Shown here in pieces: positions 34,019 through 64,000 of a stretch of 64,000 bases of DNA (positions are counted from its first letter, which is position 1; each line of letters starts with the position of its first letter). The DNA lies in NCBI GenBank assembly GCA_017847725.1, contig JAGAXW010000025.1:68067-132066 (forward strand), read 5' to 3'. The notes beneath the pieces were generated by a model. The model was not told the DNA's origin. It was given only the letters and a program-made list of their open reading frames with translations, and made no database searches. This stretch comes from Prevotella sp. GTDB taxonomy: Bacteria; Bacteroidota; Bacteroidia; Bacteroidales; Bacteroidaceae. The position numbers and the translations under genes were made by a program.

Positions 34019-37000
34019 CTATTGTATCTCCAGCTCCTTAAACTCCACGTCGCGGGTGTCGACGTGCAGGGTGTAGGTGCCGGCATTGATCTGGGTGCCG
34101 GTGGTGGTAGAGAGCATTTTGAACTTGTTGGGCGTGGGCGGGAAGGTGACGACGCGGTCGACGAGCACCGTGCGCTTGGAGTCGGTGAGGGTCATCCGGG
34201 CGCTGACGGGCTGCCCCGTGGTGTTCTTGTAGCGGAAGCGCAGGGCATACTCCTGACCGAGGCCGGGCTTGATGACGAAGGTGCCGGTCTTGGTGGGCTG
34301 ACAGATGGTGGCGGGGCGGGCCTCGGTGTCCTTCGGCAGTTCCTCCTTCGGCAGCTTGGCAATGGTATCGGTGTCGAGGCGGCTCCATACGATGGACGAC
34401 GGACGGCTGGCTGTAGGCGTGGGTCTGAGGCTGGCTACGGCGATGCCGCAGATGAGGGCCTGACCGGCTTTGACCTCGGGGAAGGAGATGTGCAGGCGAC
34501 CGTCCTTGGCTTTGGCGGTGACGACGCGCTTCAGCGAACCGCAGTAGCCGGCCTCGGCCCACGGGTCGAGGTCGTCGACGACGGTCTGGCCGTTGACGGC
34601 GACGTCGAAGATGCGCAGTCCCTCGTAGTCGGCCGTCTCAGAGGCGTCGCGACCGTGCCAGGGCTCGACGAAGTAGAGCTCGACGCGGTAGTCGCCGTCG
34701 GCTACGGGCAGGTCGTACCACAGGCGGTGGCGTCCGTAGCGGAAGTGCTGGAACAGCTCGTCGCTTCGCGTGCCGCGGATGTCGGCAGTGATGCGTCGCT
34801 GCGAGGCCTGCAGGGCATTGACGCCCTCGAAGTCCTGGCCCCACGAGTGGCTGAAGAGGGTGTCGTCGGCCACCCACTGCTGGCCGTACTCGTCGGTAAA
34901 GGCATCGCCGCCGCAGTTGATGCGGTAGAGGTAATGGTAGCCGTCGGCTCCTTTGACGAGGTCGCGGTTACGGTCGGCGGCTACGGGGAGGGTGCCCGTG
35001 GCGGGAGCGGCGGCATAGCGCCGACGGTACATGTAGTAAGCCTCTGTGGGCTCCTCCCATGTGGTGACCAGTCCCTTGTAGTTGATGGGGCCTATCTTGT
35101 CCACACGGCGCAGGGCGCCGTCGGGCTGCACGCGGCCGGGGTTGTCGTGTGAGTTGAATATCCATTGGAAGTGGCCGCATACGCCGCTATTACCCGACGG
35201 AGAACCGTCGGGAATGGTGTCGGCGAAGGCCTTCTCGGCCAACTGGGCTTTCTTCTCCAGCAGGCGGGTGAACGACTCCTCGCTGTATTTGGCGTCGCCG
35301 TGCAGGTCGAGGGTGCGCCAGGCACCGTATTCGCCGTTGAGCAATTGCTCGGGGCGGCTCAGTTCGTTGTCGTAGTTGTCGGCCGAGCCGCCGTAGGTGC
35401 CGCTCCAGTTCTGTATGACGTTCCAGTCGGTGCCCTCGCCGCCGTTGCAGGTGGTGATGGCGCGCTGGTCGCGGCAGGTGGGGTCGAGGCTTCGGATGAT
35501 GTTAGCGCACTCTTGGGCAAAGGCCTTGGGCAGCACGCTCTCGTTCTGCAGTCCCCAGAGGATGACGCTGGGCGAGTTGCGGCGCTCCTTGATCCAGCGC
35601 ACGAGCAGCCGCTTGAAGTTGTCGCGGAACTGGGGCGTGTCGTACCAGATGTGGGCCGAGAACTGGCTCCAGAAGAGCATGCCCTGCTCGTCGAAGAGCT
35701 GCTGATAGAGCAGGTTGTGGGGCTGGTGGGCCTCGCGGAAGGCGTTGAAGCCGGCGTTGCGTATCTGTTTGACGCGTGAGCGAATCTGCTCGGGGCTGAA
35801 GGCGTGGCTCTGGCCCAGCAGGTGCTCATACTCGCAGGTGCCGTTGATGAAGGTGGGCGTGCCGTTGAGGTAGAAGCGGTGGTCGCCGTCCTTGCGCAGT
35901 ACGGGCCATGAGACGCAGCGGATGCCGAAGGGCGTACGCACCTCGTCGGTGGTCTTGCCTTCGCGCTTGACCATGGTGGTCAGGGTGTAGAGGTAGGGGT
36001 CGGCCAGGCTCCAGCGGTGGGCTCCCTCGATGCGCTCGGCGTGGCGCAGCGTCTGGCTCTGGCCGGCGGCGAGGGTGAGGGTGGCGGCGTGGCGGAACAC
36101 CTGCTTGCCGGAGGCCAGCGTGAACTTGTTGACCAACTCGATGGTCTGGGCCTCGCGGGTGTAGTTCTTCACCTCGGTCTCAATGAAGACGCTGTCGCAG
36201 GCGGCATTGTTCCAGATGTGGACTCCGAAAGGCTCGATGCGCACGGCGTCCGTCTCGACGAGGCTGACGGGGCGGAAGATGCCGAAGGGCTGGCTACCCT
36301 CGGAGAAGCCCCACTCGCTACTGCATCCGCCGCACACCCACGGCGAGGCGGTCTGCATGGCGGGGTGGTCGACGTCGACCGTCAGCCGGTTGCTGCCGTT
36401 CCGCAGGTGGTCGGTGACATCCAGCGTCCAGACGGTACGCCCGACAAGCTCCTTGGGATAGCGGTGACCGTTCAGCGTGACGGTGGCGTAGGTGCCTACG
36501 CCCTCAAACTGCAGGAAGTAGCGGCGTCCCTCGCGCTTCTCGCAGTCGAACACCTTATTATATATTGCCGTACCGTGCAGGTTGCCGTGGCGCAGCTGGC
36601 GGTAGCCGTAGTAGTCGTCGAAGTTGTGGGGCAGACTGACGGTGGCGACGGTGGTGTCGCGCCCTGCTGTGGCGCGTGCCTGCCAGCCGTCGTTGAGCAG
36701 GGTCGTGGTGCGGCGCCCTTTTCGCTCGGGGGCAGGGAATCCCACTGCCGAGCGGCCCATGGGCACACTGGTGGCTACGGCGATGCCGCGCTGCTGGTCG
36801 TTGTTGACGGCACAGTAGAAGTGGTAGACGACGCCGTCGTGCTTCACCACATAGCTCTTGTGGGCAAACATCTCGTCGTAAGGCTTGGAGGGCACGATGA
36901 GGTCGGCGCCCGTCCAGTCTTGCCAGTGTATGAGATCGCGGCTGACGGCGAAGGTGTTGTAGGCATTGTATTTGCGTGCGGGGTTGTAGGCCGAGAAGTA

Positions 37001-37834: not shown

Positions 37835-37846
37835 CGTTTCTTACTC

Positions 37847-40555
37847 TTATTTTTGGAACAGCCAGTCTACTTCGCCCGAGGGACCGTTGAGGCCACAGTC
37901 GCGCGGCTTGATGTCGTCGCCAGTGAAGCCGGCAACCATCAGGATGCCCTTCGGCAGGCGCAGCGTCTGCCGACCTGCGGGCAGCGTGTATTGGTGGATA
38001 TTGACCTTCGGCATTTGGACGATGCTGATGGCATTGGTGAGGACAGGCTCGGCTTGTCCGTACTCGTTGCCGGTGGCGTCAATCTCCAGCTTGGGTGCCT
38101 TGGCAAACTTGGTGTCGTCGTCCTTGAAGAGGCCGACGAGCAGCTTGACGGGCTTGTCGCTCTCAAACGCGATGGTGGTGCCGACGATGCGCGTGGTGTC
38201 GCGGTTGAGCACCAGGGCCTGCAGACCGGCCAGCTCGGGAGCGATGGAGTCGACGGGGGTGTCGGGACGGTTCTCGAAGAGGATGGCACCCTTCCGGAGG
38301 GGCACCATCGTGCCGGCGTAGGATACCTTGGCGGGCTGCAGGGGCTGTATCTTGACGTTGGTCTGGGCTACGGGGTTCTTCAGCTTTTGCAGGTTCTCCT
38401 TGAAGGCGTCGAGCTCGGCCTGGTAGACCACAGCGAGCTCAGACCACGTCTTCATCTTACCGCCGTCGCCACCCACGGGGATGCGGCGCTGGGCTGTCTG
38501 CATCGAGTTGGCGTAGAGATACCAGTCGTCCGTCATGCGGCTTAGGTCGTACCAGATGCTGAGGCTCTGCTCGAGCCATACGACGGCTGTCTCCAGGTGG
38601 GCGATGTCGTGTGTCCACTTGTAGCGCAGCACTTCGGCAGCAGCACGCACCTTCAGCTGGAAGGCCTTGGCAAACGAGGCATAGCAGAGGATGTCGTTCC
38701 ACACGCGCTGGTATTCGTCGGCATGGCGGGTGGCCTTGGCGGCAGCGGCCCCCATCTCCACGAGGGCACGGTCACCGTGGTTTACGCACTGGTCGACGAT
38801 GTCGAAGGGCAGTTCGCCCTGATGGGGCTGTCCCTTGTATTCCTTTTCGATGTACTCGATAAGTTTCTCACCCTGGGGGCCGCAGCTCTCATAGAAGCCT
38901 GGATAGATGGTGTACTTGTAGGGATTCACCAGCTCGCCCATCGTCATGCCGAGGAGCAACGTCTGTCGGTTGCCCTCGGTGATGCCGAAGCGGCGTAGCA
39001 GTTTGGGGGCTATCTCGCCCGCCTCGTCGTAGGCGTTGAGCACGTGGCCGGCGCTGATGGTGTCGATGCCGTAGTAGTCGGCCAGCGTCTGCTTCCAGTA
39101 GCTCTTGTCCTCGCCGCGCCCGTCGTTCCATGCATAGCGGCCCCATGCCTTATACCACATCCAGTCGCGGTCCAGTTGCTTCAGGCGCTTGCCGTCGGGC
39201 AGCCGGTCGGCGGTGTAGGGCCAGTCCCAGTAGGAGGCCTGCGGGTAGAGGTGCAGCCCTCGGGAGTGGTGCACGCGGTGCATGGCCTGTACGGTCTTCT
39301 CGATGAAGGCGGGACTGGACCAGCGCCACGGCTCCAGATTGGCCAGGATGTGTACGTTGTCGATGTGGATGGGGGCGGCGGCAGCGAGCTGTCGGTGCGT
39401 CTCGCCCCACGGGCCGCCCGGCTCGTAGGTGGTCAGGCTCTCGCCCGTGTATTTCGACATGGTGTAGATGTTGGGATAGAGGGGCAGCGACTCCTTCAGC
39501 ACCAGTGGCCCGTCGGTGTCGTGCGAGCGCAGCACGATGGGGGGCAGCCCCACCCCCGACCCCTCCCCTGTAGGGAGGGGAGCTTCCGGCGCGCAGACTC
39601 CCCTCCCTACAGGGGAGGGGTCGGGGGTGGGGCTGCGCAGGCCGTCAAGAATGCCGGGGATGATGGTTTCCTTCATCCACTTCACGTCGTCGTCGATGGT
39701 GGCCATGGCCTCGCCGAGGCATACCAGCAGGCCGACGTTGGGATAGTTCTTGATGAAGGCGGCTATCGACTTGCGTGTGTAGTCGCTGATGAGCGGCGTG
39801 ATGGGGCGGTGGCGGTCTTGCGTCTTCAGACCGTAGTGGTCGGCGAAGGGCTTGCTGAGGATGATGTTATAGAACATCTGGATGACCCAGATGCCGCGCT
39901 TGTCGGCCTCGTGGGTCAGGAACGAGAACATATCGACGTTCTTCTTGAAGGTTGCCTCGTCGACCTCCAGGGCGAAGGGGTAGTCCTTCAGCTTGACCAG
40001 CGAGGCGAAGGGGTGGCCGTTCCAGAGGTAGAGCGAGTTGTACTTGTTCTCCACCATCATGTCGAGGTATTTGATCCACTCCGCCTTGTCGTAGAACCAG
40101 GGGAAGTTCTTGGGCGTGTAGGGATATTCGTAGACTCCGTGACCGGGCAGGTAGACGGTCTTCTGCAGTCCGATGCATGTGCCGCGCATCGCCATGCCTG
40201 GTTGCTCCGTGACGGGCTTGATGTCCAGTGAGCCGGCCTGCTTGACGCGGTCGGTCAGTTCCACACAGCCGTAGATGACTCCCGTGGCGTCGTTGCCGCG
40301 AACGGTGATGCCCTTCTTGCTGCGCTCAATGGTGTAGCCTTCGGCAGCGCCACCCGTGGCGACCGTCAGTGTAATGTTGCAGTCGGCTTTCTTGTTGCCG
40401 ACGGAATAGCCCATCTCCGTCAACTTTTTCTGCAGATACTGTGCGGCATACTGTTCGCGTGCCGAGGCCTTTTTGCTGGTCTGGATGCTGACACGCTGAG
40501 CCACAACCGTTACTGTCAGGCAGGCGAGAAGTAAAAGGGCTGATAGTCTTTTCAT
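37847..40555 (-). CDS. Exported GH67N/GH20b-type glycosidase (candidate alpha-galacturonidase)
   Basis: A 902-residue protein with signal peptide MKRLSALLLLACLTVTVVAQ. Residues about 25-115 form a GH20b/GH67N-type domain (ending GVIYGCVELTDRV). A TIM barrel follows (WIKYLDMMVENKYNSLYLWNG; GIWVIQMFYNIILSK), then a helical region and a C-terminal beta-sandwich. It is next to the beta-propeller-GH2 gene; in the B. thetaiotaomicron RG-II locus the gene beside the GH137-GH2 gene encodes the GH138 alpha-galacturonidase, so that family is the leading guess. Other alpha-glucuronidase-like families remain possible. A GC-rich palindrome inserted in frame adds about 31 residues near 306-337. Confidence 0.62.
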   Translation of the reverse strand: MKRLSALLLLACLTVTVVAQRVSIQTSKKASAREQYAAQYLQKKLTEMGYSVGNKKADCNITLTVATGGAAEGYTIERSKKGITVRGNDATGVIYGCVELTDRVKQAGSLDIKPVTEQPGMAMRGTCIGLQKTVYLPGHGVYEYPYTPKNFPWFYDKAEWIKYLDMMVENKYNSLYLWNGHPFASLVKLKDYPFALEVDEATFKKNVDMFSFLTHEADKRGIWVIQMFYNIILSKPFADHYGLKTQDRHRPITPLISDYTRKSIAAFIKNYPNVGLLVCLGEAMATIDDDVKWMKETIIPGILDGLRSPTPDPSPVGRGVCAPEAPLPTGEGSGVGLPPIVLRSHDTDGPLVLKESLPLYPNIYTMSKYTGESLTTYEPGGPWGETHRQLAAAAPIHIDNVHILANLEPWRWSSPAFIEKTVQAMHRVHHSRGLHLYPQASYWDWPYTADRLPDGKRLKQLDRDWMWYKAWGRYAWNDGRGEDKSYWKQTLADYYGIDTISAGHVLNAYDEAGEIAPKLLRRFGITEGNRQTLLLGMTMGELVNPYKYTIYPGFYESCGPQGEKLIEYIEKEYKGQPHQGELPFDIVDQCVNHGDRALVEMGAAAAKATRHADEYQRVWNDILCYASFAKAFQLKVRAAAEVLRYKWTHDIAHLETAVVWLEQSLSIWYDLSRMTDDWYLYANSMQTAQRRIPVGGDGGKMKTWSELAVVYQAELDAFKENLQKLKNPVAQTNVKIQPLQPAKVSYAGTMVPLRKGAILFENRPDTPVDSIAPELAGLQALVLNRDTTRIVGTTIAFESDKPVKLLVGLFKDDDTKFAKAPKLEIDATGNEYGQAEPVLTNAISIVQMPKVNIHQYTLPAGRQTLRLPKGILMVAGFTGDDIKPRDCGLNGPSGEVDWLFQK
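39544..39636. repeat. GC-rich palindromic element inserted in glycosidase gene
   Basis: Two perfect inverted 39-bp arms (39544-39582 and 39598-39636) separated by 15 bp. Each arm holds the core CCCCTCCC(T/C)(G/A)TAGGGAGGGG-type palindrome, so the whole is a palindrome of palindromes. It is 93 bp (31 codons), keeps frame, and encodes a Pro/Gly-rich stretch (PTPDPSPVGRG, PLPTGEGSGVG). Confidence 0.9.
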
Positions 40556-40570
40556 GATTCTAAGTAGTTA

Positions 40571-41206
40571 TTATTTCTTGTTTTTCTTGATCCGCTGGAC
40601 GTATGCTCGGTAGATGGTGCGCCAGTCGCGTCCGCTGTTGGTGAAATACTGCTCGTTCTTGGTCTTGAATATTTCGAAGATGGCCGATATCTCCTTCATG
40701 TTCTTGTAGTCAATTGCCATCAGGCGGGCCTCCTTCAGGTTGTTCATCAGATAGGCCTCGTCATCGGCTGTCATGTCGGGGACAATCTCCTTGTAGGCCT
40801 TCATGGTGAAGGCCACCTTCCCCACAGTATAGCAATCCAGGATATGCTCTACCTGCTCTGGCGTGAGGTCGGCATTCAGTCCGTCCAGCAGTTGCTGGCG
40901 GATAGAGGCCGGCTGCGATGAGTCGGCAATCACCTGGCGCTCCAGTGCTGACAGCTTCTTGCCTGTCTGCGGATTGATGGCCCCGTCGGGAATCATGTCC
41001 GCATGCTTGTTGTGCCAGTCGCGGATTGCTGCCAGATGCTTGGCTATCACTTGTGTCACCCGTTCTTCCTTGGCTTTGTCGCCCAGCTGCAGCTGACTTA
41101 CCCAGTCGGCAGCTTTCTTCTGGCTTCCTTCGTCAATCACCTGTGACCAGGTACTGTTGGTCATGCATAGCGTGAGTATGAGAACTAATAAGATTTTTTT
41201 TGTCAT
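40571..41206 (-). CDS. DUF3826 exported protein
   Basis: A 211-residue protein with signal peptide MTKKILLVLILTLCMTNSTWSQ, then a mostly helical domain (DKAKEERVTQVIAKHLAAIRDWHN; LTPEQVEHILDCYTVGKV). DUF3826 proteins are small periplasmic proteins found in pectin-type utilisation loci in Bacteroidetes; no activity is established to my knowledge. It is placed between the GH78-sialidase fold gene (33 bp upstream) and the GH67N-type gene (15 bp downstream), so it is part of the operon. A binding or accessory role is more likely than catalysis. Confidence 0.75.
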   Translation of the reverse strand: MTKKILLVLILTLCMTNSTWSQVIDEGSQKKAADWVSQLQLGDKAKEERVTQVIAKHLAAIRDWHNKHADMIPDGAINPQTGKKLSALERQVIADSSQPASIRQQLLDGLNADLTPEQVEHILDCYTVGKVAFTMKAYKEIVPDMTADDEAYLMNNLKEARLMAIDYKNMKEISAIFEIFKTKNEQYFTNSGRDWRTIYRAYVQRIKKNKK

Positions 41207-41239
41207 GATTTTAATAATAGTTATGTCTTTGTGTGATGA

Positions 41240-44200
41240 TTATAACAACTTAGGGTCAATCTCCTTGTAGGCCATGCGCAGGCGGCGCCAGGTGTAGACG
41301 ACATGCAACTTGCCGTCCTTGCCCTGGATGATGGCGGGATAGGAGTATTGGCTGATGGGCGAGTTTTCGAGTGTCAGGGCGTGGCGCCAGTGGGTACCGT
41401 CGTCGCTGACGGCGATGGAGAGGGGGGTGCGCACGCCCTTCTTCGTGGCGGGCAAGGTCTCGAAGTTGTTGTAGACGAGCACGTGGCGACCGTCGCTGAG
41501 GGTGACGGCATCGGTGCCGCTTTGGTTGTTGGCAACGTCAAGTAGCGTGACGGGGGTCCAGGTGTCGCCGTTGTCTGACGAGAACGAGGTACCTATCCGT
41601 CCGTTGCGGGTGCGCATCAGCACCTGCAGACGACCGTCTTTCAGCTTCAGGATGCTGGGCTGGATGCAGTCGATGGGATGGCGGCCGTCGGCGGCAGCCT
41701 GGCCTCCGGCATCGGGGGCCTCGATGTCCTCATGCTTGCCCGACGGTGTAGCGCCGGGCGTGTTGGCCTTCATGTCCTCGGTGCGCATGGCGAGTTCGGC
41801 CTTGACGGGACCAACGTATTTCCACTCCTTGGTCTTCAGGTCGTAGATTTCCATGTGGAACTTCCAGCCGTTGCCCTCCGTGCTCGACGGACAGAGCAGG
41901 CGGCCGTCAATGATTTCGGGTTTGTTCTTGACGGGGCCGAGGAATCCCTTGGGCAGCGGCTCTTTGTTGCTCCAGGTGCGCCCGCCGTCTTTCGACTTGG
42001 CGAGCCAGCCCGTCCAGTCGGCCACCTTGAGACCTATCTTGAAGAACAGCCATAGCTCGCCGTTGGGCATCTCCGTGATGACGGGGTTCCAGCAGGCCTT
42101 TCTCCTCTGGTTGACTGTGACATTCCCCCGGCTGACGGGACCTGCAGAGGCTGGGGTGCTCTCGGCGGTGATGCCGGCTATCTCGGCTTCTGGCGTATTC
42201 AGGGTGAAGACGCCGTCGGCGGCGAGGATGGGCTGGCTCCATGTCTTGGAGCCCTTCTTCTTGATGCTCACCCAGATGCAGACGTCGGGGTTGCGCTCAT
42301 GCTTGCCGCCAAAGTAGGTGGCTACGAGGTCACCCTTCTTCGTCTCGACGATGCTGGCCGAGTGACACTGGGGGAAGGAGGCTTGGGCATAGAGGAACTC
42401 GTCCTTCACGATGGCGGCATTGGCGGTGGGTATGTCGCAGTAGAAATTGTAGCTGCCTGAGCCGATGGTCTTCACCGTGCCGTCGGGCAGGTAGACGTCA
42501 GCCGTCGTGTTGCATGGAATGAGAACGTGCCAGTCGATGTGGCGTTGCGCTTTCTTCCACTCGCTATGAATGTCGCCGTAGGGAGAATGGAAGATGGCTC
42601 TTGCGCTTTCGCAGCCCTGAATGCCGAAGTCGGGTTTCAGTATGATGTGCTTGTAGGCGGTAGCGACGGAGGAACCGTTGCTCGCAGACTGGGGGGATGG
42701 GGCCGCGGCCTGGCGGATGCCGCCAAGATACTGATAGCACCAGGTGAGCAGGTCGCCGAGCAGCATGACGTGGTTGCCGCTGTTCATGCGGGGACTGGCC
42801 TTGTCGCCGTTCCACAGTTCCCACGTGGTGGTGGCGCCGTTCTCGGCCATGTAGCCCCATGAGGGGTAGCTCTTTTGGGTGGCTATCATGTAGGCAATGT
42901 CGCTGAAACCGTTGTCGCTGAGGCCGCGCAGCAGCCATGAGATGCCGATGACGCCGCAGGGCACATGGGCGTTGTTCTTGATGATGATGTTCTCGACGAC
43001 GTTCTTCACCACCTCCTCACGGCAGTCATCGGGCACGATGCCGAAGGAGAGTGCCAGGAGGTTGGCCGTGGCAGTGTTGTTGCCGTAGAACACGCTGTCG
43101 GGGTAGAGCACATGGCCCGGGCGGGGCGACGTGCCACGACGGACGGTCAGGAAGTGGCGGTTGAAGTCGCGCATCATCTGTTCGCGCAGGGGGCACCAGT
43201 GGTCGGCCTCGCAGCCCCACTGCTCCATGAGCTGCATGGTGCGGATGATGTAGGCCGTGGAGATAAGTGCCACATCCGTCTTGCGTGCCGGGTCTTGCGA
43301 ATGGATGAGTTCCAGCTTCTCGGGTGGCACGCACCAGTCGCCGTACTTACCGCAGTGGATGATACCGTCCTTGCTGTACTCCTCGATGATATGGTTGACC
43401 CACTTCTTGATATAGGGGTAGGAGCGGTCGATGGCCTCGCGGTTGCCGAACTGCCGCCACAGCATGTCGCAGCCGAAGGGCAGGGCGGCGGCCCAGGTCA
43501 CGTCGTCGCTGTAGTAGTTCCAGAAGGCCGGAGCCACGTCGGGGATGCAGCCGTCGGAGCGCTGCGCCTCGCAGATGTCGCGCATCCACTTGGTGTAGAG
43601 GCGCTCGTTTAGGGCCACGAAGCTCTCGCCGAGGCTTCCCATGGTGCGGTCGCCCAACCAGGGTTGGCGCTCGTCGCGTTGCGGACAGTCGACGGGCATG
43701 CCCTTGTAGTTGGCGGCAATGCCCATACAGGCATTCTGCACCACCTTATTTAATATAGTATCGCTGCAACTGAAGCTGTACGGATAAACGGCAATGCCGT
43801 CGTACACCTCCTCGGCCACGAGCTGGCGGGCGTCGAGGTCTTTGATGCCCGACACCTCGACGTAGCGGAAGCCGTGGTAGACAAACGTCGGTCGCCAGGC
43901 GCGGTCGTGGTTCCACTCTTTGGTAACAGGCTCTTGGCCGTTGCAGACGTAGACGTCGGTAGACCGTGCATTGCGCAGGTTCTCGGTATAGAGCGTGCCG
44001 TCGGTGTTCAGCTTCTCGGCATAGCGCACACGAATGGTGTCGCCCGCCTTGCCGTGGGGCATCAGCGACACCCATCCCGCCATGTTCTGGCCGAAGTCGA
44101 TGACGTAGGTGTCAGGCTTGCCGGGCAGGGGCTTCAGTTCCTTCCACTCTACGGGGCCGGGGATGGTCTTGGTCGGCTTCATCAGGTTGTGATAGCTCTG

Positions 44201-45316: not shown

Positions 45317-45364
45317 ATATTGCTGGGTTTTATTACATCTACTTACAATGTCTATCGCTATCTA

Positions 45365-45403
45365 CTCCCCTCCCTACAGGGGAGGGGCGGGGGGAGGGGC
45401 TTC
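45365..45403. repeat. GC-rich repeat between GH140 and GH78-BNR genes
   Basis: Contains the core CTCCCCTCCCTACAGGGGAG plus a G-rich tail, matching the arm at 39598-39636 except in the tail. It directly abuts the GH140 stop codon, in the 87-bp gap before the next gene. Confidence 0.85.
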
Positions 45404-53955: not shown

Positions 53956-53994
53956 GTCGCTTTAAATACGTGCGAGGCGGACGGATGTTAAGTA

Positions 53995-54029
53995 AAAAAG
54001 GCTCAACTTTTTCGTTTGAGCCTTTTTTT
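53995..54029 (-). terminator. Rho-independent terminator after esterase gene
   Basis: The stem GGCTCAA/TTGAGCC (54000-54006 with 54016-54022) is flanked by A-rich and T-rich runs on both sides and ends the minus-strand FucI-esterase transcript; it may work in both directions. Confidence 0.85.
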
Positions 54030-54032
54030 GAT

Positions 54033-55328: not shown

Positions 55329-55338
55329 CTTTCAACTT

Positions 55339-57162
55339 TTATTTATACAGGGGACCGAAATTCTGGCAGGCGCGATAGTCGGCACCTTCCTTGTCCATGC
55401 CGAAGGCATTCCATGCGGCGGGACGGAAGATGTCCTTGTCCTGTATGTTGTGCATGCATACGGGGATGCGCAGCATGGCACAGAGCGTAATCAGGTCGGC
55501 ACCCACGTGTCCGTAGCAGATGGCACCGTGGTTGGCTCCCCAGTTGTTCATGACGGAATAGACGTCCTTGAAGGCATCCTTTGCGGGGTCGAGACGGGGT
55601 ACAAACCAGGTGGTAGGCCATGTTGGGTCGGTGCGCTTGTCGAGGATGTCGTTTACGTTCTGTGGCAGGTCGACCGTCCAGCCCTCGGCCAGCTGCAGTA
55701 CGGGACCGAGGCCTGCGACGAGGTTGATGCGCAGCATGGTCATCGGCATTCCGCCGCGGGTGAGGAAGTGGCTTGAGTAGCCGCCGCCACGGAAGTAGTC
55801 GCGGTCGGCAGGCATCCAGCTGGTAGCCTTCAGGCAGGCTTCCACGTCGCTGTCGGTGAGCTCCCAGTGGGGCTTCATGACGGCCTTGCCGTCCTTGTCG
55901 CTGACGGCACCGGTGGCGTCGAGCGTAGTGGCACCGCTATTAATCAGGTGGATGAAGCCGTTGGCTGCTCCGCCCTCGGGCTTCCAGCCGCTGACGCGCT
56001 CTACGGCCTCAGGGCTCCAATAGGTGCGGATGTCGGAGAACATGACGCCGCGGTTGGTCAGCAGGTGGCCGAAAAGCATGGAGATGCCGTTGAGCGAGTC
56101 GTTCTCAGTGGCCAGCGTGTAGGCCTCGCGCGGACCGTTCCAGTCGAACGAGGTGCACATCAGGGATTCGGGGAAGTCGAAGTTGGGCTTGTAGTCGGTC
56201 CACTGGCGCTGTCCCTGCACGCCGGCAGCAATGGCGTTGTGGCCGATGGCCTCTTCCTTGTAGCCCATCTGGAGCAACTTGTCGGAGCCTTGCATCAGGT
56301 CGCGGATAATCATCATGCTCTTTACGGTGAACTCCCAGTCCTGGTCTTTCTCCTCGCGGTTCTTTCCCTTTCCCTTGCCGTTGAAGGTGGTCATGGGAAC
56401 GCCGGGGAACAGCGGACGGTCTTCGTTGTAGTCGTGACCCTCCTGGGGCTTGCAGTATTTGTCTACCCACTGCATGGCGCGCTCGAACTCCTCCTTGTCA
56501 TAGATGCCAAAGTCGACACGGCGCAGGATTTCCACCAACGACACATACTCTGTGCGCATGCCAAGGTACTGCTGCATGAAGTCGGCGTTGACAATCGAGC
56601 CGGCAATACCCATGCAGGTGTTGCCCAGTGAGAGGTATGACTTGCCGCGCATGGTGGCGACGGCCTGTGCGGCGCGGGCGAAGCGCAGCAACTTCTCAGC
56701 GACGTCGGCGGGGATGGTGTTGTCGTCGAGGTCCTGCACGTCATGGCCATAGATGCCATAGGCGGGCAGTCCCTTCTGTGCGTGGGCGGCCAGCACGGCA
56801 GCCAGGTAGACGGCGCCGGGGCGCTCCGTACCGTTGAAGCCCCATACGGCTTTGGGGTAGGTGGGGTTCATGTCCATGGTCTCAGAGCCGTAGCACCAAC
56901 AGGAGGTGACGGTGATAGTTGAGCCGACGCCCTCGCGCTCAAACTGCTCGGCACACTGGGCCGACTCGCCGACGCGACCGATGGTGGTGTTGGAGATGAC
57001 ACACTCGACGGGCGAGCCGTCGCCGTTTCTCAGGTTCGACTCGATGAGCTGTTTCACGGCCTTGGCCAGATTCATGGTCTTCTCTTCAAGGCCTTCGCGG
57101 ATGCCGCCCTGGCGACCATCGATGGTGGGGCGAATGCCGATTTTAGGGTAGTTTGCTTTCAT
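55339..57162 (-). CDS. fucI: L-fucose isomerase
   Basis: A 607-residue cytoplasmic enzyme close in length to the 591-residue E. coli FucI, starting [20 protein letters not shown]. It contains [28 protein letters not shown] and [18 protein letters not shown], all family-typical. It converts L-fucose to L-fuculose; enzymes of this family also isomerise D-arabinose, and L-galactose can be a substrate. It sits between the SSS transporter (6 bp) and esterase genes. No fuculokinase or fuculose-1-phosphate aldolase gene is in the window. Confidence 0.93.
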
Positions 57163-57168
57163 ATGAAT

Positions 57169-58680
57169 TTACTTGTTTTTGAATAGATACGTGAGAAAAA
57201 ATCCTACCAGGAAGATGACACAGGTGCCTAGCACAATGGCGAGGTAGGGGTGCAGGTGAGGGCCGGGCAGCTGCCACATGTCGGCCAGCGATATCCAGCC
57301 GATGACGGCGACGCCGGCCAGACAGCCTGTGAGTGCTGCCAGGCGGTTGATGCGCTGGGGAATGCAGCCCAGCAGGAATAGTCCCAGCATGCCGCCGGAG
57401 AAGATGCTCGAGAGGGTCCACCAGGCATCGATGATGCTTTCTACGGATAGCATGGCGATGGCCACGCAGGCCCCTAACAGTCCCACGCCAAAGCTGCTTA
57501 GCCGGACGATGGCCAGCTCCAACTTCTGATGGCGGTGATGGTTGGCAGGGTCGTGGTGGCGCAGGTGGTCGGCCACGTTGCGGGCCTTCAGGAAGAAGGG
57601 ACGCACGTAGTCGGTCAGGATGATGGTGGCGGCAGAAGTCACGGAGGTAGACACCGTGCTCATGCCGGCTGCGAAGATGCTGGCAATGAGCAGTCCGCGC
57701 AGTCCTACGGGCAGTCCGTTGACGATGAAATAGGGGAACACGTAGTCGGGCTTCTGGGCTATCTCGGCAGGCAGTTCGGCCACTCCGGCCTGGTAGTAGG
57801 AGTAGAGCGCAGAGCCTATCAGGAAGAATAGGGCCGACACGGGGATGAACAGGTAGCCGCCGAAGAGGGCCGAGAACTTGGCGTCGGCGTCGGTCTTGGC
57901 AGCGTGGTAGCGCTGTACGTAGTTCTGGTCGATGCCGTAGTTCTGCAGGTTGATGAAGATGCCGTAGATGAGGCATACCCAGAAGGTGCTGGTGGTGAGG
58001 TCGCTGGTGAAGGCCCCCAGGGAGAACTTGTTGCCCTCCGGCGAGTTGGCTGCCAGGTCGAAGGTCTGCATGGGACCCTCCGGCATGGAGAACATCAGGA
58101 TGGCCAGGCAGAGCAGTGCGCCGCCTATCAGGATGATGCCCTGGATGGCGTCAGCCCAGATGACGGCCTTCAGTCCGCCCATCATCGAATAGACGATGAT
58201 GCCGATGCTGGTGAGGATGATAACCATGTGCATGTCCCAACCCATCAGGATGTACATCGGGACGGCCAGCAGATAGAGGATGGAACCCATGCGAGCCACC
58301 TGCGTCAGCAGGTAGCAGGCAGAGGCGTAGAGGCGTGCCCATGCGCCAAACTTCTCCTCCAGAAACGTGTAGGCTGAGACGGAGCCCGAGTGCCGGTAGA
58401 ACGGTACGAAGTATTTGGCTGCGAAGTAGCTGGCGATGGGGATGGACAGTGAGAACACAAAGGCGTTCCAGTCGGCAGCGAAGGCCTTGCCCGGATAGCC
58501 GATGTAGGAAATGCTCGACACGTAGGTGGCGAATATCGACATGCCCACCACCCAGCCGGGTATGCTGTGCCCTGCCGAGGTGAATTCGTCGGCCGAAGAG
58601 CCTTTCTTGAAGAACGAGCAGCCGAAGATGACTACCCCCAGCGTGAAGAGGATGAAGATGACGAAATCGACTACATGCAT
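57169..58680 (-). CDS. Sodium:solute symporter (SSS) family transporter
   Basis: A 503-residue inner-membrane protein with about 13 hydrophobic helices. Features: GHSIPGWVVGMSIFATYVSSISYIGYPGKAF near the N-terminus, GGLKAVIWADAIQG, and the cytoplasmic loop with ASIFAAGMSTVSTSVTS. Homologues carry sugars, sialic acids or other organic anions with sodium. Here it is placed between FucI and a DapA-type aldolase, so it probably imports a product of the local glycosidases, for example a keto sugar acid or a deoxy sugar. The start overlaps the preceding stop by 10 bases. Confidence 0.85.
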   Translation of the reverse strand: MHVVDFVIFILFTLGVVIFGCSFFKKGSSADEFTSAGHSIPGWVVGMSIFATYVSSISYIGYPGKAFAADWNAFVFSLSIPIASYFAAKYFVPFYRHSGSVSAYTFLEEKFGAWARLYASACYLLTQVARMGSILYLLAVPMYILMGWDMHMVIILTSIGIIVYSMMGGLKAVIWADAIQGIILIGGALLCLAILMFSMPEGPMQTFDLAANSPEGNKFSLGAFTSDLTTSTFWVCLIYGIFINLQNYGIDQNYVQRYHAAKTDADAKFSALFGGYLFIPVSALFFLIGSALYSYYQAGVAELPAEIAQKPDYVFPYFIVNGLPVGLRGLLIASIFAAGMSTVSTSVTSAATIILTDYVRPFFLKARNVADHLRHHDPANHHRHQKLELAIVRLSSFGVGLLGACVAIAMLSVESIIDAWWTLSSIFSGGMLGLFLLGCIPQRINRLAALTGCLAGVAVIGWISLADMWQLPGPHLHPYLAIVLGTCVIFLVGFFLTYLFKNK

Positions 58681-59609
58681 AGCTTGCCGTCTTTAATGGG
58701 GAGAGCTGCTAACGCCTGGCGTATCTTCTCACGCTCGGGTGCCTCAAACTTGTAGAACGGCGAAGCCACGAAGTCGTCGTTGATGATGCCCAGTAGCGAC
58801 AGGGCACACTTCAGTCCCTTCAGATAGCTCGAGCCGTGCTTGCCCACCGTGTAGATAGTGGTGGAGATCTGCATGATCAGCTGTTGCAGCTTCAGCACGG
58901 TATCCATGTCGCGGTTCTTGGCTGCGTTGTACATGCCCACATACAGTTCGGGGAACATGTTGGCACCGCCGTTGATGCCTCCGTGGCCGCCCAGCAGAAC
59001 GCACTCGCCGGTAATCTCCTCGGGGCCTACCAGCATGGCGAAGTCCTTGCGGTGCTGCATCTTGTACATCACGGACTGGAAGTAGACGGCATTGGCCGAC
59101 GAGTCCTTGAAGCCGACCACCTGCGGATTTTCGGCAATGCGCCTGACGGTGTCGGGGCCAAAGCTGACCTTCACGTGCGACGGCATGTTGTAGAGGAATA
59201 CGGGTAGCGGCAACTGGGGCACCAGCTCCTCATAGAACTGGGCAAGCTCGGGCTGGCCAGTGGCAAAATAGTAGGGGGGAGCACTGACGACGCCGTCGGC
59301 ACCATAGTCGGCAGCCTTTCGGGCCAGCCGGATGCTCTCTTCTATCGACGTGTCGGTAATACAGGCCAGCAGGGGAAGGCGGCCGCGGTTGATGCGGCAC
59401 GACTCCTTGATCATCTGCTTGCGCACGTCGTACGAGAGGCTTTGCTCCTCGCCTGTCGTGCCGAGCACGAACAGTCCGTGGACGCCGCCGGCTATCAGGT
59501 GTTCAATCAGTCGCTCGAGGCTCTCGACGTCGAGGGTCTCATTGTCTTTCAAGGGGGTAACGAGCGGCGGGATGATGCCGCTCAGGGGTGTTCTGAAATT
59601 AGGTGTCAT
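58671..59609 (-). CDS. DapA-family aldolase/dehydratase (candidate keto-acid sugar aldolase)
   Basis: A 312-residue class I aldolase fold enzyme. The Schiff-base lysine is Lys168 in VGFKDSS, the catalytic tyrosine is Tyr140 in FLYNMPSH, and LGTTGEEQSLS near 49-59 is the pyruvate-binding loop. Members include dihydrodipicolinate synthase, N-acetylneuraminate lyase and 2-keto-3-deoxy sugar acid aldolases. Lysine biosynthesis is unlikely given its position in a carbohydrate operon with SSS, FucI and GH78 genes. A KDO- or Dha-cleaving aldolase is attractive because the locus has candidate ulosonic acid-releasing enzymes, but the sequence alone does not fix the substrate. Confidence 0.82.
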   Translation of the reverse strand: MTPNFRTPLSGIIPPLVTPLKDNETLDVESLERLIEHLIAGGVHGLFVLGTTGEEQSLSYDVRKQMIKESCRINRGRLPLLACITDTSIEESIRLARKAADYGADGVVSAPPYYFATGQPELAQFYEELVPQLPLPVFLYNMPSHVKVSFGPDTVRRIAENPQVVGFKDSSANAVYFQSVMYKMQHRKDFAMLVGPEEITGECVLLGGHGGINGGANMFPELYVGMYNAAKNRDMDTVLKLQQLIMQISTTIYTVGKHGSSYLKGLKCALSLLGIINDDFVASPFYKFEAPEREKIRQALAALPIKDGKLCM

Positions 59610-59641
59610 AGCTATGATTAGTTTTTACATTTAAGACGTTT

Positions 59642-61900
59642 TCACTGTTTTGTTGTCATCACTTGTTCACTCCATGTGTGGTGGCCGGCTCCGACGTGGT
59701 GGACGGTGTGGCTGTAGGGCATGGTGACGTCGGCAGTGCATCCTTGCGGAATGTCGACGTCGAGCGTGAGGCGTGCTTGCTTGATGTACCACGCCACGCG
59801 TATGTCGCCCGTCGAGCCGCGACACCAGGTGAGGTCGCCTACGGGATGGGGAGCTATCTCGACGTGCTCACCGTGGCGCCAGATGCCCAGGAAGTAGGGG
59901 ATGAGCAGATTGTTCAGGTGCCCCATCATGAAGTGGTTCATCGAGGCGCCGTGCTCCGGGTTCCACTGCTCGGTCAGCGTGGTGTGCCCCAGTTTAATCT
60001 GGTAGCCATAGCCGGGCACGTCGTAGTGGTTGAGCATCTGATAGAGCAGTTCCTGCTGACCATTGTGGATGAGCGCATTGAAAAGATAGCGATTGCCCAC
60101 GTCGCCCGTGGTGAGGCGGTTGCCGTGGCGACGGATGTCGTCGACAAGGTTCTGCACAACGGCCTCGCGGTCGCCGTCGGGTACGAGCCCCATCTCCAGA
60201 GCGATGGCGTTGGCACACTGGCTCCCCGTGCCAAACTGGTGGGTGTCGGGGTGGTAGAACTCGCGGATGAACGCCGTGCGGATGCTGTCAGCCCGTGGCG
60301 CCCCCATCAGCTTGTTCCACCAGTAGTAGTGGGCGGTAGACACCAGTGGCATGGGGGTGTTCTGGGCAAAGCCGGCACGCCCCGGACCGAAGTCGTACCA
60401 GTCGCCGAGTCCTTGTCTGAGGATATAGGCGGAGTCCTGCGTGGCCAGATAGTCCGTGTAGCGCTCCATCTGCTGACGGTATTGGCGCAGCAGGCTGTCG
60501 TCGCCATAGTAGTCGCGGTAGAGGAAGGGCAGTGCGATGAAGGCACCTCCCCATTCGGGCGACTCGAGGAATGGCGGTGCCCACGAACCTTCGAAGACAC
60601 ACAGGTTGGGGGCTATCTCCGGCAGGGCCCCGCTGGGCTGCTGGGCGTCGGCGATGTTCTGCATGGTCTGCTCGATGAACGAGCGGCAGTCATAGTTGCT
60701 GACCAGTCCCTCGCCGTTCAGCCAGTCTTGTTCCAGCCAGCCCAGCTTCTCGCGGTGCGGACAGTCCGTCCATACTGACTGCCAGTTGGAGCGGATGGCA
60801 CGGTCTATCAGTCGGTAGGCGTCATTGAACAGCGTGTTGGAACAGACGAAAGAGCCTGTCTTGCGGGCAGAATTGTAGACGAAGCATGACTCGACGCCTT
60901 TCAGCGCGTCGAGGTCGCCCTCTATCTGCAAATAGCGATAGCCGTAGTAGGAGAACCGGGGGTGCCACGCGACGCGTCCTGTCCCCCTCAGGGTGTAGGT
61001 GTAGTAGTGCGGCCGTCCTGTCTGCTTCTGGTTCACCAGTCCTTCCTTGGTCAGTGTCTCGCCGGGCGTTATCTTCAGACGCTGCCCACTCTTGCCCATG
61101 ACGGTGATTTCGGGGAAGCCGCTGAGGTTCTGCCCCATGTCGAGCACCAGCACCGAGTCGTTGCGCACGGTGTCCTTGACGGCGAAGCGCTCCATGATTC
61201 TTACGGGCTCGGCTATCTGTTTTCTGAGCACGCCGAGGGGTGCCTGCTGTATGACGGCGGGGCGCCAGTCGGTGGGTGTGATGCGGTCGTCGAAGTCCTC
61301 GCCGCCATAGATGCTGTTGAAGGTGATGGGACTGTATGCCCACTGCCACGAGCCGTCGCTGACGTAGTCTGCCGTGTGTCCGTCCTCGTATGCTACGTAC
61401 AGCCGGAACAGCAGTGTCGGCGGGCCGAACGCAATCTTCATCTTGGCGTAGCGGCGCCCCTGTTCGTTATAGAATCCGTTGCCCAGCAACACCTGCACGT
61501 CGTTCTCCCGGGCCAGCATGGCCGTCACGTCGTACTCGTTGTAGAAGATGCTCTTGTCGTAGTCGCTCCACAGGGGCGCAAACTCGGCGTTGCCCACTTT
61601 CGCGCCGTTGATGGTCAGCTCGTAGAACCCCAGTCCGCAGATGTAGACGGTGGCCCGGCGTATGCCGCCCTCCAGCCGTATCATCTTGCGCAGACTGATG
61701 CTGCGTGCCGACATGGTGTCCACGGCAGCCCAGGCGGCCTTGACGGCAGGCTCCTTCAGTTTGGCGCCCGTGAAGTTGCGCCCTTGTGGCAGCCTGGCCT
61801 GCTGGCGCGTCATGTGGCCAATCCACTGTGCGGCTCCGAAGTCGTCGGCCAGCGTGGAAAGGCTCCACAGTGTACATAGGATGAACGACAGGATTCTCAT
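59642..61900 (-). CDS. GH78-type alpha-L-rhamnosidase (CPHREKLGW subgroup)
   Basis: A 752-residue exported enzyme with signal peptide MRILSFILCTLWSLSTLA. It has the N-terminal beta domains (GLGFYELTINGAKVG; MGQNLSGFPEI) and the (alpha/alpha)6 barrel with TDCPHREKLGWLEQDW, which replaces the classic CPQRDER sequence, then GLGDWYDFGPG. This marks a distinct subgroup, perhaps with different linkage preference from the GH78 domain at 41240-45316. It starts within four bases of the upstream stop (ATGA at 61897-61900). The start at 61900 was chosen because it opens with the signal peptide. Confidence 0.85.
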   Translation of the reverse strand: MRILSFILCTLWSLSTLADDFGAAQWIGHMTRQQARLPQGRNFTGAKLKEPAVKAAWAAVDTMSARSISLRKMIRLEGGIRRATVYICGLGFYELTINGAKVGNAEFAPLWSDYDKSIFYNEYDVTAMLARENDVQVLLGNGFYNEQGRRYAKMKIAFGPPTLLFRLYVAYEDGHTADYVSDGSWQWAYSPITFNSIYGGEDFDDRITPTDWRPAVIQQAPLGVLRKQIAEPVRIMERFAVKDTVRNDSVLVLDMGQNLSGFPEITVMGKSGQRLKITPGETLTKEGLVNQKQTGRPHYYTYTLRGTGRVAWHPRFSYYGYRYLQIEGDLDALKGVESCFVYNSARKTGSFVCSNTLFNDAYRLIDRAIRSNWQSVWTDCPHREKLGWLEQDWLNGEGLVSNYDCRSFIEQTMQNIADAQQPSGALPEIAPNLCVFEGSWAPPFLESPEWGGAFIALPFLYRDYYGDDSLLRQYRQQMERYTDYLATQDSAYILRQGLGDWYDFGPGRAGFAQNTPMPLVSTAHYYWWNKLMGAPRADSIRTAFIREFYHPDTHQFGTGSQCANAIALEMGLVPDGDREAVVQNLVDDIRRHGNRLTTGDVGNRYLFNALIHNGQQELLYQMLNHYDVPGYGYQIKLGHTTLTEQWNPEHGASMNHFMMGHLNNLLIPYFLGIWRHGEHVEIAPHPVGDLTWCRGSTGDIRVAWYIKQARLTLDVDIPQGCTADVTMPYSHTVHHVGAGHHTWSEQVMTTKQ

Positions 61901-64000
61901 AGGGCGTTGGGGATAATGAGTTTGCCCATATCGCTGCGCTGGCCGACGCATCGGCCGTTGACATAGACCTTCAGGCCTTTTCCCTGATGATAGCGCGAGC
62001 CGTCACGGTCCCAGACGATGGTGATGTCGTGGCCGTGATAGCGCACGTTGTCTAAGCAGAAGTAGCTCCACTTGTCCTCAGGCAGCAGCGGGTTGACCTC
62101 GATGGTGTTGTCCTGGCGGGGACGCAGACCGCAGATGCCGGTGATGATGAGGTCGTTCCACGTCGAGTGGTTGTAGTAGCGTGAGCGCTCCTGGTCGCCC
62201 TTCAGCCAGTAGCCGGTCGTCTCGTCGAGATACTCGCCGATGTATGGCTTGCCGCGCATGTGCTGGCTTTGCATGTACTTCTCCATCTCTGCATAGAAGA
62301 GCGAGTCGCCGACCACGGGCTTGCTGTAGTCGTTGAGGTAGTTGGCCATGGCCGTCAGGGTCTGACTGGTGGCGAAGGGCCATACGGCGCCGTCCCATTC
62401 GCACTTGCCCACACCGTGGGTGCGGAACTGTGGGTGGCGGCGTTCGGCAGTGGTCAGTCCGTAGGGGGCCGAGAAGCCGCTTGGGTCGGCAGCCTGCAGC
62501 CAGGCTACGGCATATCGGGCCTCGTCCTTGGCCATGTGGGTGTACCAGGGCATGAAGCCGATGGCTTCGCGGACGTTGGCGCTGGAGTCGATGCGGTGGG
62601 TCTCGAAGAAGGCGTGGCGCTCATTCCAGAGCCTGGCATGCACATTCTCCTTCAGTGCGGCGGCCTTGTCGAGATAGGTCTTGGCCTTGTCCTTGTCGCC
62701 CGCGAGCTGTGCGATGTGGCCGATGGCCCGGGCGTTGCCGTACATATAGCTGTTGATGCTGGGGCGCAGATACTTCTTCCTGCGTCCGCCGCTGATGGTC
62801 TCTTCCATGGCGTCCTGTACGTCGGCCTGCCAGTAGAGGATACCCCCCTCCAAATCTCCTCCTGCAGAGGAATCTCCCCCTCCACGCTGAGCATCAGAAT
62901 CTCCCCCTCTATCAGAGTTTCCCCCTCCACGCTGAGCATCAGAATCTCCCCCTCTACAGGAGGGGGCAGGGGGGAGGCCTCTTGTATGCGTACTCTCCCA
63001 GTGCTTATACTCCCACTCCAGTGATGGCAGCATGGATACTATCCAGTCCTTGCGGCCGTCTACGAGATAGCGGCCCCACATGGCGTGCGGCATCCACGAC
63101 GAGTAGTTGGCAATCTTCTTCATGGGTTGTCCGTTGTTGCCCTTGTACCATGTCTGCATAATCTGGTCGAGGTAGACGGGGTTGCGCAGCCAGCGGCTTT
63201 CCAGTATGTGGTGGCCGACGCCGGAGGCAATGAGGTTGTACTGGTCGGCATAGCTGCGGTTGACGAGGAACTCGGTCATCGCATAGCCCACGGGTGTCTG
63301 CCTGATGTGCTTTCTGAGGGTCCACCAGCGGAAGTACCACATCTCCTCGAAGTCATGGTTGGAACATTCGAAGAGCGGCACGTTCTGCGTCATCCACTGC
63401 CAGCTGTCCTTGTTGGGGATGGCCTGCCGGATGCCTTCCGGCTCCATCGTGTTGAAGTAGTCGACGTAGTGGCGGTAGTCGTTGTAGTGCAGCAGGGCGG
63501 CACTGCCGTCGGCGTCCGTGGCCGCCGTCTTGAAGTTGCTGATGGCATAGACGGCCAGCGGCTCGTCCTCGCCGGCATTCTCCAGCACGCCGTCCCAGTC
63601 GGCAGGGGTGTCGATGTCGGGGAAGGTGCGGCGGGCACCTGTGCGCAGCATGACGCGTTCTATCGACTCGACGGGCGCAAAGAACATGCGCTGTCCTGCT
63701 TTCTTGCCGTTGATGTATACTTCTATCAGTCGTCGGTCGACGCTGAGCACGGCCTTGACGTGGTAGACGGTGTTGGGCTCATACTTGCCCAGTCCGCCAA
63801 AGCGGGCACCGCCCTTGCAGCGCATCTCGCCCGCGTCGGTCAGTTCGATACGCGAGCAGGCCGTGCCGTGCTGGTCGAGGAATTCTATCTGCAGCAGTCC
63901 CGTGTTGTTCTGCCGTGCGCGCAGGTCGAACTCGACACTGAGTTCTCTGGTGGCTGGTATCTTGCGCTCCACGCGGGCATAGTCGAAGGGATTGCTGTCG
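61897..64000 (-). CDS. Exported-type (alpha/alpha)6 barrel glycosidase, N-terminus beyond window
   Basis: The frame continues past the right edge; 701 residues are visible. The first 150 form a beta-sandwich like the C-terminal domain of GH32/GH43-type propeller enzymes (SVDRRLIEVYINGKKAG). The rest is an (alpha/alpha)6 barrel of the MGH1-like/GH142-like type, with CEWDGAVWPFATSQTL and YNHSTWNDLIITGICGLRP, plus a short beta domain. A propeller before the sandwich would give the layout of the RG-II enzyme with GH143 and GH142 parts, so its upstream sequence is informative. A repeat-derived insertion of about 40 residues lies at 62870-62975. The GTG at 63972 is internal, not a start. Confidence 0.68.
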   Translation of the reverse strand, partial: DSNPFDYARVERKIPATRELSVEFDLRARQNNTGLLQIEFLDQHGTACSRIELTDAGEMRCKGGARFGGLGKYEPNTVYHVKAVLSVDRRLIEVYINGKKAGQRMFFAPVESIERVMLRTGARRTFPDIDTPADWDGVLENAGEDEPLAVYAISNFKTAATDADGSAALLHYNDYRHYVDYFNTMEPEGIRQAIPNKDSWQWMTQNVPLFECSNHDFEEMWYFRWWTLRKHIRQTPVGYAMTEFLVNRSYADQYNLIASGVGHHILESRWLRNPVYLDQIMQTWYKGNNGQPMKKIANYSSWMPHAMWGRYLVDGRKDWIVSMLPSLEWEYKHWESTHTRGLPPAPSCRGGDSDAQRGGGNSDRGGDSDAQRGGGDSSAGGDLEGGILYWQADVQDAMEETISGGRRKKYLRPSINSYMYGNARAIGHIAQLAGDKDKAKTYLDKAAALKENVHARLWNERHAFFETHRIDSSANVREAIGFMPWYTHMAKDEARYAVAWLQAADPSGFSAPYGLTTAERRHPQFRTHGVGKCEWDGAVWPFATSQTLTAMANYLNDYSKPVVGDSLFYAEMEKYMQSQHMRGKPYIGEYLDETTGYWLKGDQERSRYYNHSTWNDLIITGICGLRPRQDNTIEVNPLLPEDKWSYFCLDNVRYHGHDITIVWDRDGSRYHQGKGLKVYVNGRCVGQRSDMGKLIIPNAL
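62876..62956. repeat. 36-bp direct repeat inside glycosidase gene
   Basis: Two identical 36-bp copies (62876-62911 and 62921-62956) with a 45-bp period, each containing CCCCCTCCACGCTGAGCATC. The period equals 15 codons, so frame is kept, and the insertion encodes RGGDSDAQRGGG-type repeats. Pyrimidine-rich edges and a flanking AGGAGGGGGCAGGGGGGAGG suggest origin from the GC-rich repeat family nearby. Confidence 0.9.

Follow-up and report, generated by a model that had tools for sequence, protein, structure and literature searches.

A probable rhamnogalacturonan II locus in two operons with a candidate KDO-utilization cassette in a Prevotella genome

We analyzed a 64,000-nucleotide stretch of a Prevotella sp. 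genome (C33:68067-132066, where C33 is contig JAGAXW010000025.1; hereafter the window). The genome has 2.39 Mb and is 80.6% complete. The genes considered here are all on the minus strand, occupy positions 34019-64000 of the window and run past its edge (coordinates beyond 64000 are given in window numbering). We regard it as quite probable that they form a locus that has been cut in two, serves the degradation of rhamnogalacturonan II (RG-II), the plant pectin of greatest complexity, and in its second operon also provides for the use of 3-deoxy-D-manno-octulosonic acid (KDO), which ranks among the rarest sugars of RG-II. RG-II is almost certainly the substrate of the locus. For the cassette in operon 2, comprising a dihydrodipicolinate synthase (DHDPS)-superfamily aldolase, a sodium:solute symporter (SSF) and an L-fucose isomerase (FucI), gene association and chemistry make KDO a rather likely substrate.

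Enzymes of the locus point to RG-II

The original prediction, made from the DNA letters without database searches, had named RG-II as the most specific fit for enzymes encoded on one strand in two operons. This assignment is supported, as the RG-II families and a methylesterase of the BT1017 type are strong matches to solved proteins, and all the enzymes named are indeed encoded on the minus strand. Both operons are seen as well; the second, however, runs to 67105, and a block with an extracytoplasmic function (ECF) sigma factor gene lies between them. Operon 1 (34019-49239) encodes the following proteins (GH, glycoside hydrolase):

34019..37834, minus strand: GH137-GH2-malectin protein, BT0996-like (5mt2/5mui; GH2 and malectin Pfam domains)
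37847..40555, minus strand: GH138, predicted alpha-galacturonidase, BT0997/BPa0997-like (6hzf/6hze)
40571..41206, minus strand: stand-alone DUF3826 protein, perhaps BT1022-like (PF12875, E = 6.9e-62)
41240..45316, minus strand: GH78 rhamnosidase fused to a BNR (sialidase-like) domain at residues ~960-1358 (Pfam)
45404..46864, minus strand: GH140 apiosidase, BT1012-like, 486 aa (PF13204 and 3kzs/5msy)
46861..49239, minus strand: GH95 (PF22124, E = 4.6e-179; 4ufc, E = 3e-242; start picked by eye)

Operon 2 (54033 to 67105) encodes:

54033..55328, minus strand: predicted BT1017-type pectin methylesterase without a DUF3826 domain (6goc, E = 6.3e-184)
55339..57162, minus strand: FucI, proposed D-arabinose isomerase (TIGR01089)
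57169..58680, minus strand: SSF symporter, proposed KDO importer (PF00474, E = 2.6e-37)
58671..59609, minus strand: DHDPS-superfamily aldolase, proposed KDO aldolase (PF00701, E = 1.4e-62)
59642..61951, minus strand: second GH78 rhamnosidase (PF17389, E = 2.2e-76; start perhaps ATG 61900)
61897-66180, minus strand, with the C-terminal half (61897..64000) in the window: GH43-like-GH143-GH142 protein of 1,427 residues (5mqr)
66230-67105, minus strand, beyond the window edge: alpha/beta hydrolase gene, the first of the operon

The founding members of GH137, GH138, GH140, GH142 and GH143 are RG-II enzymes, and the locus contains an RG-II-type set consisting of GH137 fused to GH2, GH138, GH140, GH143-GH142 and the BT1017-type methylesterase. 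The numbers 137, 138, 142 and 143 denote the families to which we take the window proteins to belong; likewise, we take 5mt2 to be BT0996, 5msy to be BT1012 and 5mqr to be BT1020. Matches of the enzymes to solved structures extend over the greater part of the domain or protein concerned and reach E-values as low as 0, which is far beyond chance. The protein foreseen as a propeller-GH2-malectin fusion does have GH2 and malectin domains and can now be specified as GH137-GH2-malectin, since its residues 5-372 match 5mt2 with E = 2.5e-183 (about 1e-183 for 5mt2/5mui); residues 1187-1261 match 7zvo, presumably the carbohydrate-binding module of BT0996-C. The protein labeled 'GH67N-type' is instead a GH138 enzyme, matching BPa0997 (6hzf/6hze) over residues 22-900 with E = 0 and 1116 bits. 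Only 26 of 301 sampled genomes of the family have GH138.

The predicted (alpha/alpha)6 enzyme is present, but not as a whole protein: it is the GH142 part of the 1,427-residue protein that extends past the window edge. From residue 302 on, this protein matches 5mqr (a chain of 1108 residues), with E = 8.4e-284 for the half inside the window and E = 1.9e-217 for the other half; the stretch ahead of this part, ~300 residues long, resembles GH43 (PF22847, E = 3.3e-8), and the Pfam name for the GH143 propeller is 'BT_1020-like'. Among 28 open reading frames (ORFs) with the same label in relatives, 14 have 1389-1485 codons; the other 14 fall short of this, and many of these are truncated where the contig or locus stops. 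GH95 and the second GH78, both foreseen, are present as listed. GH140 was foreseen too (PF13204 Apiosidase, E = 4.6e-110; 3kzs/5msy, E = 4.1e-205) and probably starts at ATG 46864, because a longer ORF overlaps GH95. The foreseen fusion of GH78 and BNR is confirmed (PF17389, E = 5.5e-93; PF13088, E = 1.6e-78). GH140 and the fusions had been taken as markers; GH140 is genuine, but GH137, GH138 and GH143-GH142, which had not been recognized, are more telling. Also omitted were the BT1017-type esterase, the DUF3826 protein, the aldolase, the SSF symporter and FucI. The structure matches do not place the key proteins in families lacking RG-II activity.

The BNR domain matches PF13088 strongly and sialidase B only weakly (E = 3e-6). 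Arginines 1072, 1139, 1235, 1296, 1344, 1345 and 1347 are invariant in all 25 aligned rows, that is, in the window and in those 24 of 30 fetched loci that have an ORF of at least 700 residues (the other six were dropped). The GH78-BNR protein is a candidate for acting on side chain C (Rha-KDO), and GH95 is expected to be a BT1010-like alpha-L-galactosidase; the bond cut by each glycosidase is suggested by homology.

In the excerpts of the literature on which we draw here and below, BT0996, BT0997, BT1012, BT1017 and BT1021 of B. thetaiotaomicron are described (PMC9843283, PMC7939467), BT0996 as a beta-L-arabinofuranosidase and beta-glucuronidase (PMC9843283) and BT0997 as an alpha-galacturonidase (PMC7939467). 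The esterase match 6goc is BT1017 (PMC7939467), and the catalytic triad Ser282, Asp352 and His388 is kept with the same numbers as in BT1017. We considered whether the esterase and DUF3826 genes had arisen by a splitting of the BT1017 protein and set this idea aside, as BT1022 is already a separate protein resembling DUF3826 (PMC7939467).

Another contig of the genome bears on the substrate. C56:19332-34194 (L140, L141), outside the window, encodes on one strand a split transketolase (two halves), an FGGY kinase, a fucose-isomerase-C-type isomerase, GH2, a GH106 rhamnosidase, a SASA esterase and another GH2. The split transketolase, kinase and isomerase resemble the apiose pathway reportedly described by Carter et al. 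in 2018, and the set looks like apiose catabolism joined to RG-II enzymes. This is only a lead, because the kinase scores as a member of the glycerol-kinase subfamily (626 against a cut-off of 498 for the subfamily model; the equivalog, at 583.5 against 590, is just missed).

It is very improbable that the locus has borrowed its families to attack another polymer (rhamnogalacturonan I, arabinogalactan or a host glycan): GH78, GH95 and GH2 are found in many loci and there is no SusD gene beside this one, but GH137, GH138, GH140, GH142, GH143 and the BT1017-type esterase occur here together with strong matches, and the apiose-pathway-like set lies with GH106 and GH2 on C56. The SusD result does count against RG-II: only one of the genome's 11 SusD matches is on C33 (33426-33893), and it lies about 68 kb from the locus. 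No TonB-receptor domain was found in the scanned ORFs of the locus; SusC was not searched for genome-wide.

The aldolase and its partners

Class I pyruvate aldolases of the DHDPS superfamily are marked by the Schiff-base lysine in GFKDSS and the tyrosine of YN. These residues are kept in the subfamily of the window aldolase (GFKDSSAN and YNMP in 11 of 11 members). The DapA motif is YNxPxR, with an arginine; the 11 aligned subfamily members have YNMPSH or YNMPTH, while DapA encoded on C34 of the same genome has YNVPGR. On the dapA model the aldolase scores 182 bits, below the cut-off of 206.15, and DapA from C34 scores 329.9; on nanA it scores 112 bits against a cut-off of 382, and it stays below the cut-offs of all seven NCBIfam models listed for it. 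Identity with DapA was rejected on the grounds of the dapA cut-off and the histidine in place of the motif arginine.

The nearest solved structure is 4xky (E = 1.3e-146, with the next structure at 3.6e-37), whose source organism we take to be B. thetaiotaomicron. It belongs to the same subfamily, though it was deposited as dihydrodipicolinate synthase, and the subfamily is probably not DapA. That the window gene encodes a second dihydrodipicolinate synthase, as the name of 4xky and membership in PF00701 would have it, and stands in this position by chance, is very unlikely, given the score below the dapA cut-off in a genome whose C34 gene reaches 330 bits and is clearly dapA, the histidine in all 11 aligned members and a symporter gene that comes next in 76 of 80 loci.

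In the window, 10 bases are common to the aldolase and SSF genes. FucI is the sole PF07881 match in the genome and scores 1062 bits on TIGR01089 (cut-off 850). It is 72-74% identical to FucI proteins encoded at fucose-operon-like places (G219, G013 and the second copy of G257).

Separately, we observed on C21 (L014:1327-2382) a second DHDPS-family aldolase that is not DapA; it has YNILAT for YNxPxR, and a gene for an SSF-like symporter (assigned by eye) follows directly, from 2369.

Conservation of the cassette

We compared the 80 loci nearest by aldolase (the best 80 of 123, 83-95% identity); 79 of their titles name Prevotella or Prevotellaceae and one Bacteroidales, and many titles point to ruminants. 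SSF was matched in 78 of the 80 loci. In 76 it directly followed the aldolase among the mechanically called ORFs, and in 46 of those 76 the two genes shared 4-13 bases. FucI was matched in 27 loci and directly followed SSF in nine. Among the 53 loci without a local FucI, 25 genomes were checked and 24 of them had FucI elsewhere. An RG-II-type neighbor was found in 61 of the 80 loci, a loose count, in that every ORF carries its best BLAST label, distant GH78 and GH95 labels are counted and loci truncated at the end of a contig were retained. GH106, GH2, GH141, GH127, GH78-like and other families are represented among the further neighbors of the aldolase.

Co-occurrence was analyzed in 301 genomes of the family, with the aldolase found in 13, GH138 in 26 and FucI in 100; the Fisher tests take no account of relatedness. 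GH138 was present in 10 of the 13 aldolase carriers vs. 16 of 288 other genomes (p = 9e-10); the three carriers without GH138 are 81%, 65% and 99% (G245) complete. All 13 carriers had FucI, vs. 87 of the 288 others (p = 3.5e-7). Within the GH138 genomes alone, FucI was found in 10 of 10 aldolase carriers and in six of the 16 others (p = 0.0026). The BNR domain of the GH78 fusion was matched in 30 of 31 chosen aldolase carriers (three with one stop codon in the matched frame), a count that covers carriers only and has no non-carrier control.

In two genomes of another genus (G257 and G245), the aldolase and SSF are encoded together with a divergent FucI, a YhcH/DUF386 protein and a regulator of the LacI type, with no RG-II marker enzymes nearby. 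(The names araA, araB, araD, fucR, fucA, fucK, fucP, kdsA and kdsD, and labels built on them, were read from sequence and gene order unless a Pfam or NCBIfam match is cited.) A second FucI of G257 lies in what resembles a complete fucose operon, so the copy in its cassette probably serves a different function. In the FucI tree, the cassette proteins of G257 and G245 form a branch of their own, although the program warns that two long branches may have been joined falsely; a single FucI inherited by all cassettes was rejected, as the tree sets these two apart.

As a further observation, kdsA- and kdsD-like genes (assigned by eye) lie about 2-6 kb from the aldolase-SSF pair in G109, G077 and G094 (L123-L128).

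Proposed KDO pathway and alternatives

The aldolase travels with FucI and therefore should release a FucI substrate. D-arabinose has been reported as such a substrate (PMC6894278), N-acetylneuraminate lyases, which belong to the aldolase's superfamily, are able, though weakly, to form KDO out of pyruvate and D-arabinose (PMC4016182), and in plants KDO and 3-deoxy-D-lyxo-heptulosaric acid (Dha) occur only in RG-II (PMC12168206).

We propose that enzymes with signal-peptide-like N-termini would strip RG-II: GH95 would remove L-galactose, GH137-GH2 would take off arabinofuranose and glucuronate and GH138 the alpha-linked galacturonic acid, GH78 and GH140 would remove rhamnose and apiose, and the BT1017-type esterase the methyl esters, while the Dha chain would be removed by GH143-GH142 and the Rha-KDO chain by GH78-BNR. 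The SSF symporter would then bring in the released KDO, the aldolase would cleave it to pyruvate and D-arabinose, FucI would convert D-arabinose to D-ribulose, and a ketopentose kinase would pass D-ribulose into the pentose phosphate pathway. Our guess for this kinase is the araB-like kinase on C17.

Several observations weigh against this proposal. No dedicated ribulokinase or fuculokinase was recognized among the three FGGY matches in the genome, and the N-acetylneuraminate lyases have a relative activity of just 1-1.5% on D-arabinose (PMC4016182). RG-II-type neighbors are missing from 19 of the 80 loci, many of them on short contigs; 16 of the 26 GH138 genomes do not have the aldolase; and G245 has the cassette with neither a GH138 nor a BNR-domain match. 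Eight of the 13 aldolase carriers belong to one genus (g8), with the tests uncorrected for relatedness. The window FucI, 72-74% identical to FucI of fucose-operon-like places, is only 63% identical to the cassette FucI of G257 and G245. Finally, in six g8 and two g13 regions the aldolase-SSF pair has no FucI beside it, and FucI is found elsewhere next to a fucose-permease-like gene (assigned by eye); because FucI sits with this gene in several carriers, its co-occurrence with the aldolase is weakened as proof.

In one alternative, the aldolase serves Dha and FucI serves L-galactose or fucose. Dha, like KDO, is a 2-keto-3-deoxy acid, GH143-GH142 shares the operon with the aldolase, and L-galactose would come from the action of GH95; one FucI is titled as L-galactose-active (a reference in PMC6894278). 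Cleavage of Dha, however, would yield a four-carbon acid that is of no use to FucI, and the recurrence of the aldolase-SSF-FucI unit (adjacent in nine of the 80 loci, and present in G257 and G245) would thereby be left unexplained. Moreover, no fuculose-phosphate aldolase was recognized in the genome or in 12 relatives: the only class II aldolase match in the genome lies within an arabinose-operon-like set, and the relatives have one AraD-like gene each, accompanied in 10 of the 12 by one longer RhaD-like gene. The absences of a fuculokinase, a fuculose-phosphate aldolase and the rhamnose equivalents are weak, because the genome is incomplete. Considering both sides, we find the Dha assignment unlikely.

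KDO is also a sugar of lipopolysaccharide, and the cassette might salvage KDO or a related acid from the lipopolysaccharide of other gut bacteria or from the cell's own envelope, the RG-II neighbors being coincidental. Three of the six g8 regions with kdsA-/kdsD-like genes nearby, and the 19 loci with no RG-II-type neighbor, are consistent with such a role. A coincidence is hard to reconcile with GH138 in 10 of 13 carriers vs. 16 of 288 other genomes, with the BNR domain in 30 of 31 carriers and with RG-II enzyme homologs, loosely labeled, in 61 of 80 loci, and we consider this salvage role distinctly improbable.

Probable interruption of the locus and other features

The two operons are separated by the following features:

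49474..53955, minus strand: ECF sigma / FecR-like / MG2-domain / CarboxypepD-like block (PF04542/PF08281 for the ECF gene)
53994..54029, minus strand: intrinsic terminator after the esterase gene, at the end of operon 2 (hairpin followed by a U run, -16.6 kcal/mol, z = -5.9)

The FecR-like label was given by eye, with no Pfam family, and the MG2 and CarboxypepD matches are below the Pfam cut-offs. The block is not sugar machinery and probably lies outside the function of the locus. The terminator was read by eye and folded; the promoter/terminator scan missed it, probably due to its long loop.

The gene following the esterase was compared in 14 relatives. GH95 follows directly in seven (L017, L018, L027, L040, L049, L052 and L082), an ECF gene in four (L023, L024, L036 and L037) and an MG2-type gene in one (L044), while in two (L015 and L026) the locus stops soon after the esterase. 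In our reading, a single ancestral RG-II locus was divided when the ECF-sigma block was inserted.

Beyond operon 2, chromate-transporter and purL-type genes lie further out. An ATPase_2-type AAA gene (32766-33893, minus strand) is located just past the 3' end of the locus; a PHROGs scan of it gave no match. There are no Rfam matches at the gathering score in the window, and no tRNA was found there. In L075 (1377-2834) and eight other loci of the cluster, a xylose-isomerase-like TIM barrel is fused to DUF3826 (one representative was scanned) near RG-II enzymes of rumen-type Prevotella.

Relation to known systems

RG-II degradation loci of Bacteroides thetaiotaomicron were reportedly described by Ndeh et al. 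in 2017. The locus shares with them GH137-GH2, GH138, GH140, GH95, GH143-GH142, a BT1017-type esterase, a stand-alone DUF3826 protein and GH78 (PMC7939467, PMC9843283). It differs from them in having no adjacent SusD gene, an esterase without the DUF3826 domain of BT1017 and, compared to the 1108 residues of 5mqr, a GH43-like domain ahead of GH143-GH142 in a protein of 1,427 residues. Here the aldolase, SSF and FucI genes are inside the operon. GH141 was seen in the locus of a relative.

Clustering of GH137-GH143 in RG-II polysaccharide utilization loci has already been reported for metagenome-assembled genomes of rumen Bacteroidetes (PMC7260996), and the RG-II locus itself is a variant of this kind; the part of that paper available to us makes no mention of a KDO cassette. 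Our search of the literature on KDO, related acids, aldolases and RG-II, which left most subscription journals outside, yielded no title describing KDO use from RG-II. Sialic acid (nan) catabolism likewise pairs an SSF importer with a lyase of the DHDPS superfamily, and the two loci of the other genus also have YhcH/DUF386 in common with it. In contrast to nan catabolism, FucI takes the place of amino-sugar enzymes here, and the lyase is far below the nanA cut-off (112 vs. 382).

In summary, we lean towards a widespread KDO-catabolic cassette, which would comprise an SSF importer, a KDO aldolase subfamily including 4xky, FucI acting as a D-arabinose isomerase and sometimes a YhcH-type anomerase; in rumen-type Prevotella it would have been joined to RG-II enzyme operons, with at least two FucI lineages recruited. 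The structure 4xky, already solved, is probably misnamed, and the cassette suggests a new name for it. The cutting of bonds in RG-II by gut bacteria is known, whereas the fate of the rare sugars released is much less clear. The predicted KDO import and breakdown set offers a testable three-protein pathway and a marker for RG-II users. If our interpretation is true, the cassette lets RG-II degraders eat one of the diagnostic sugars of RG-II.

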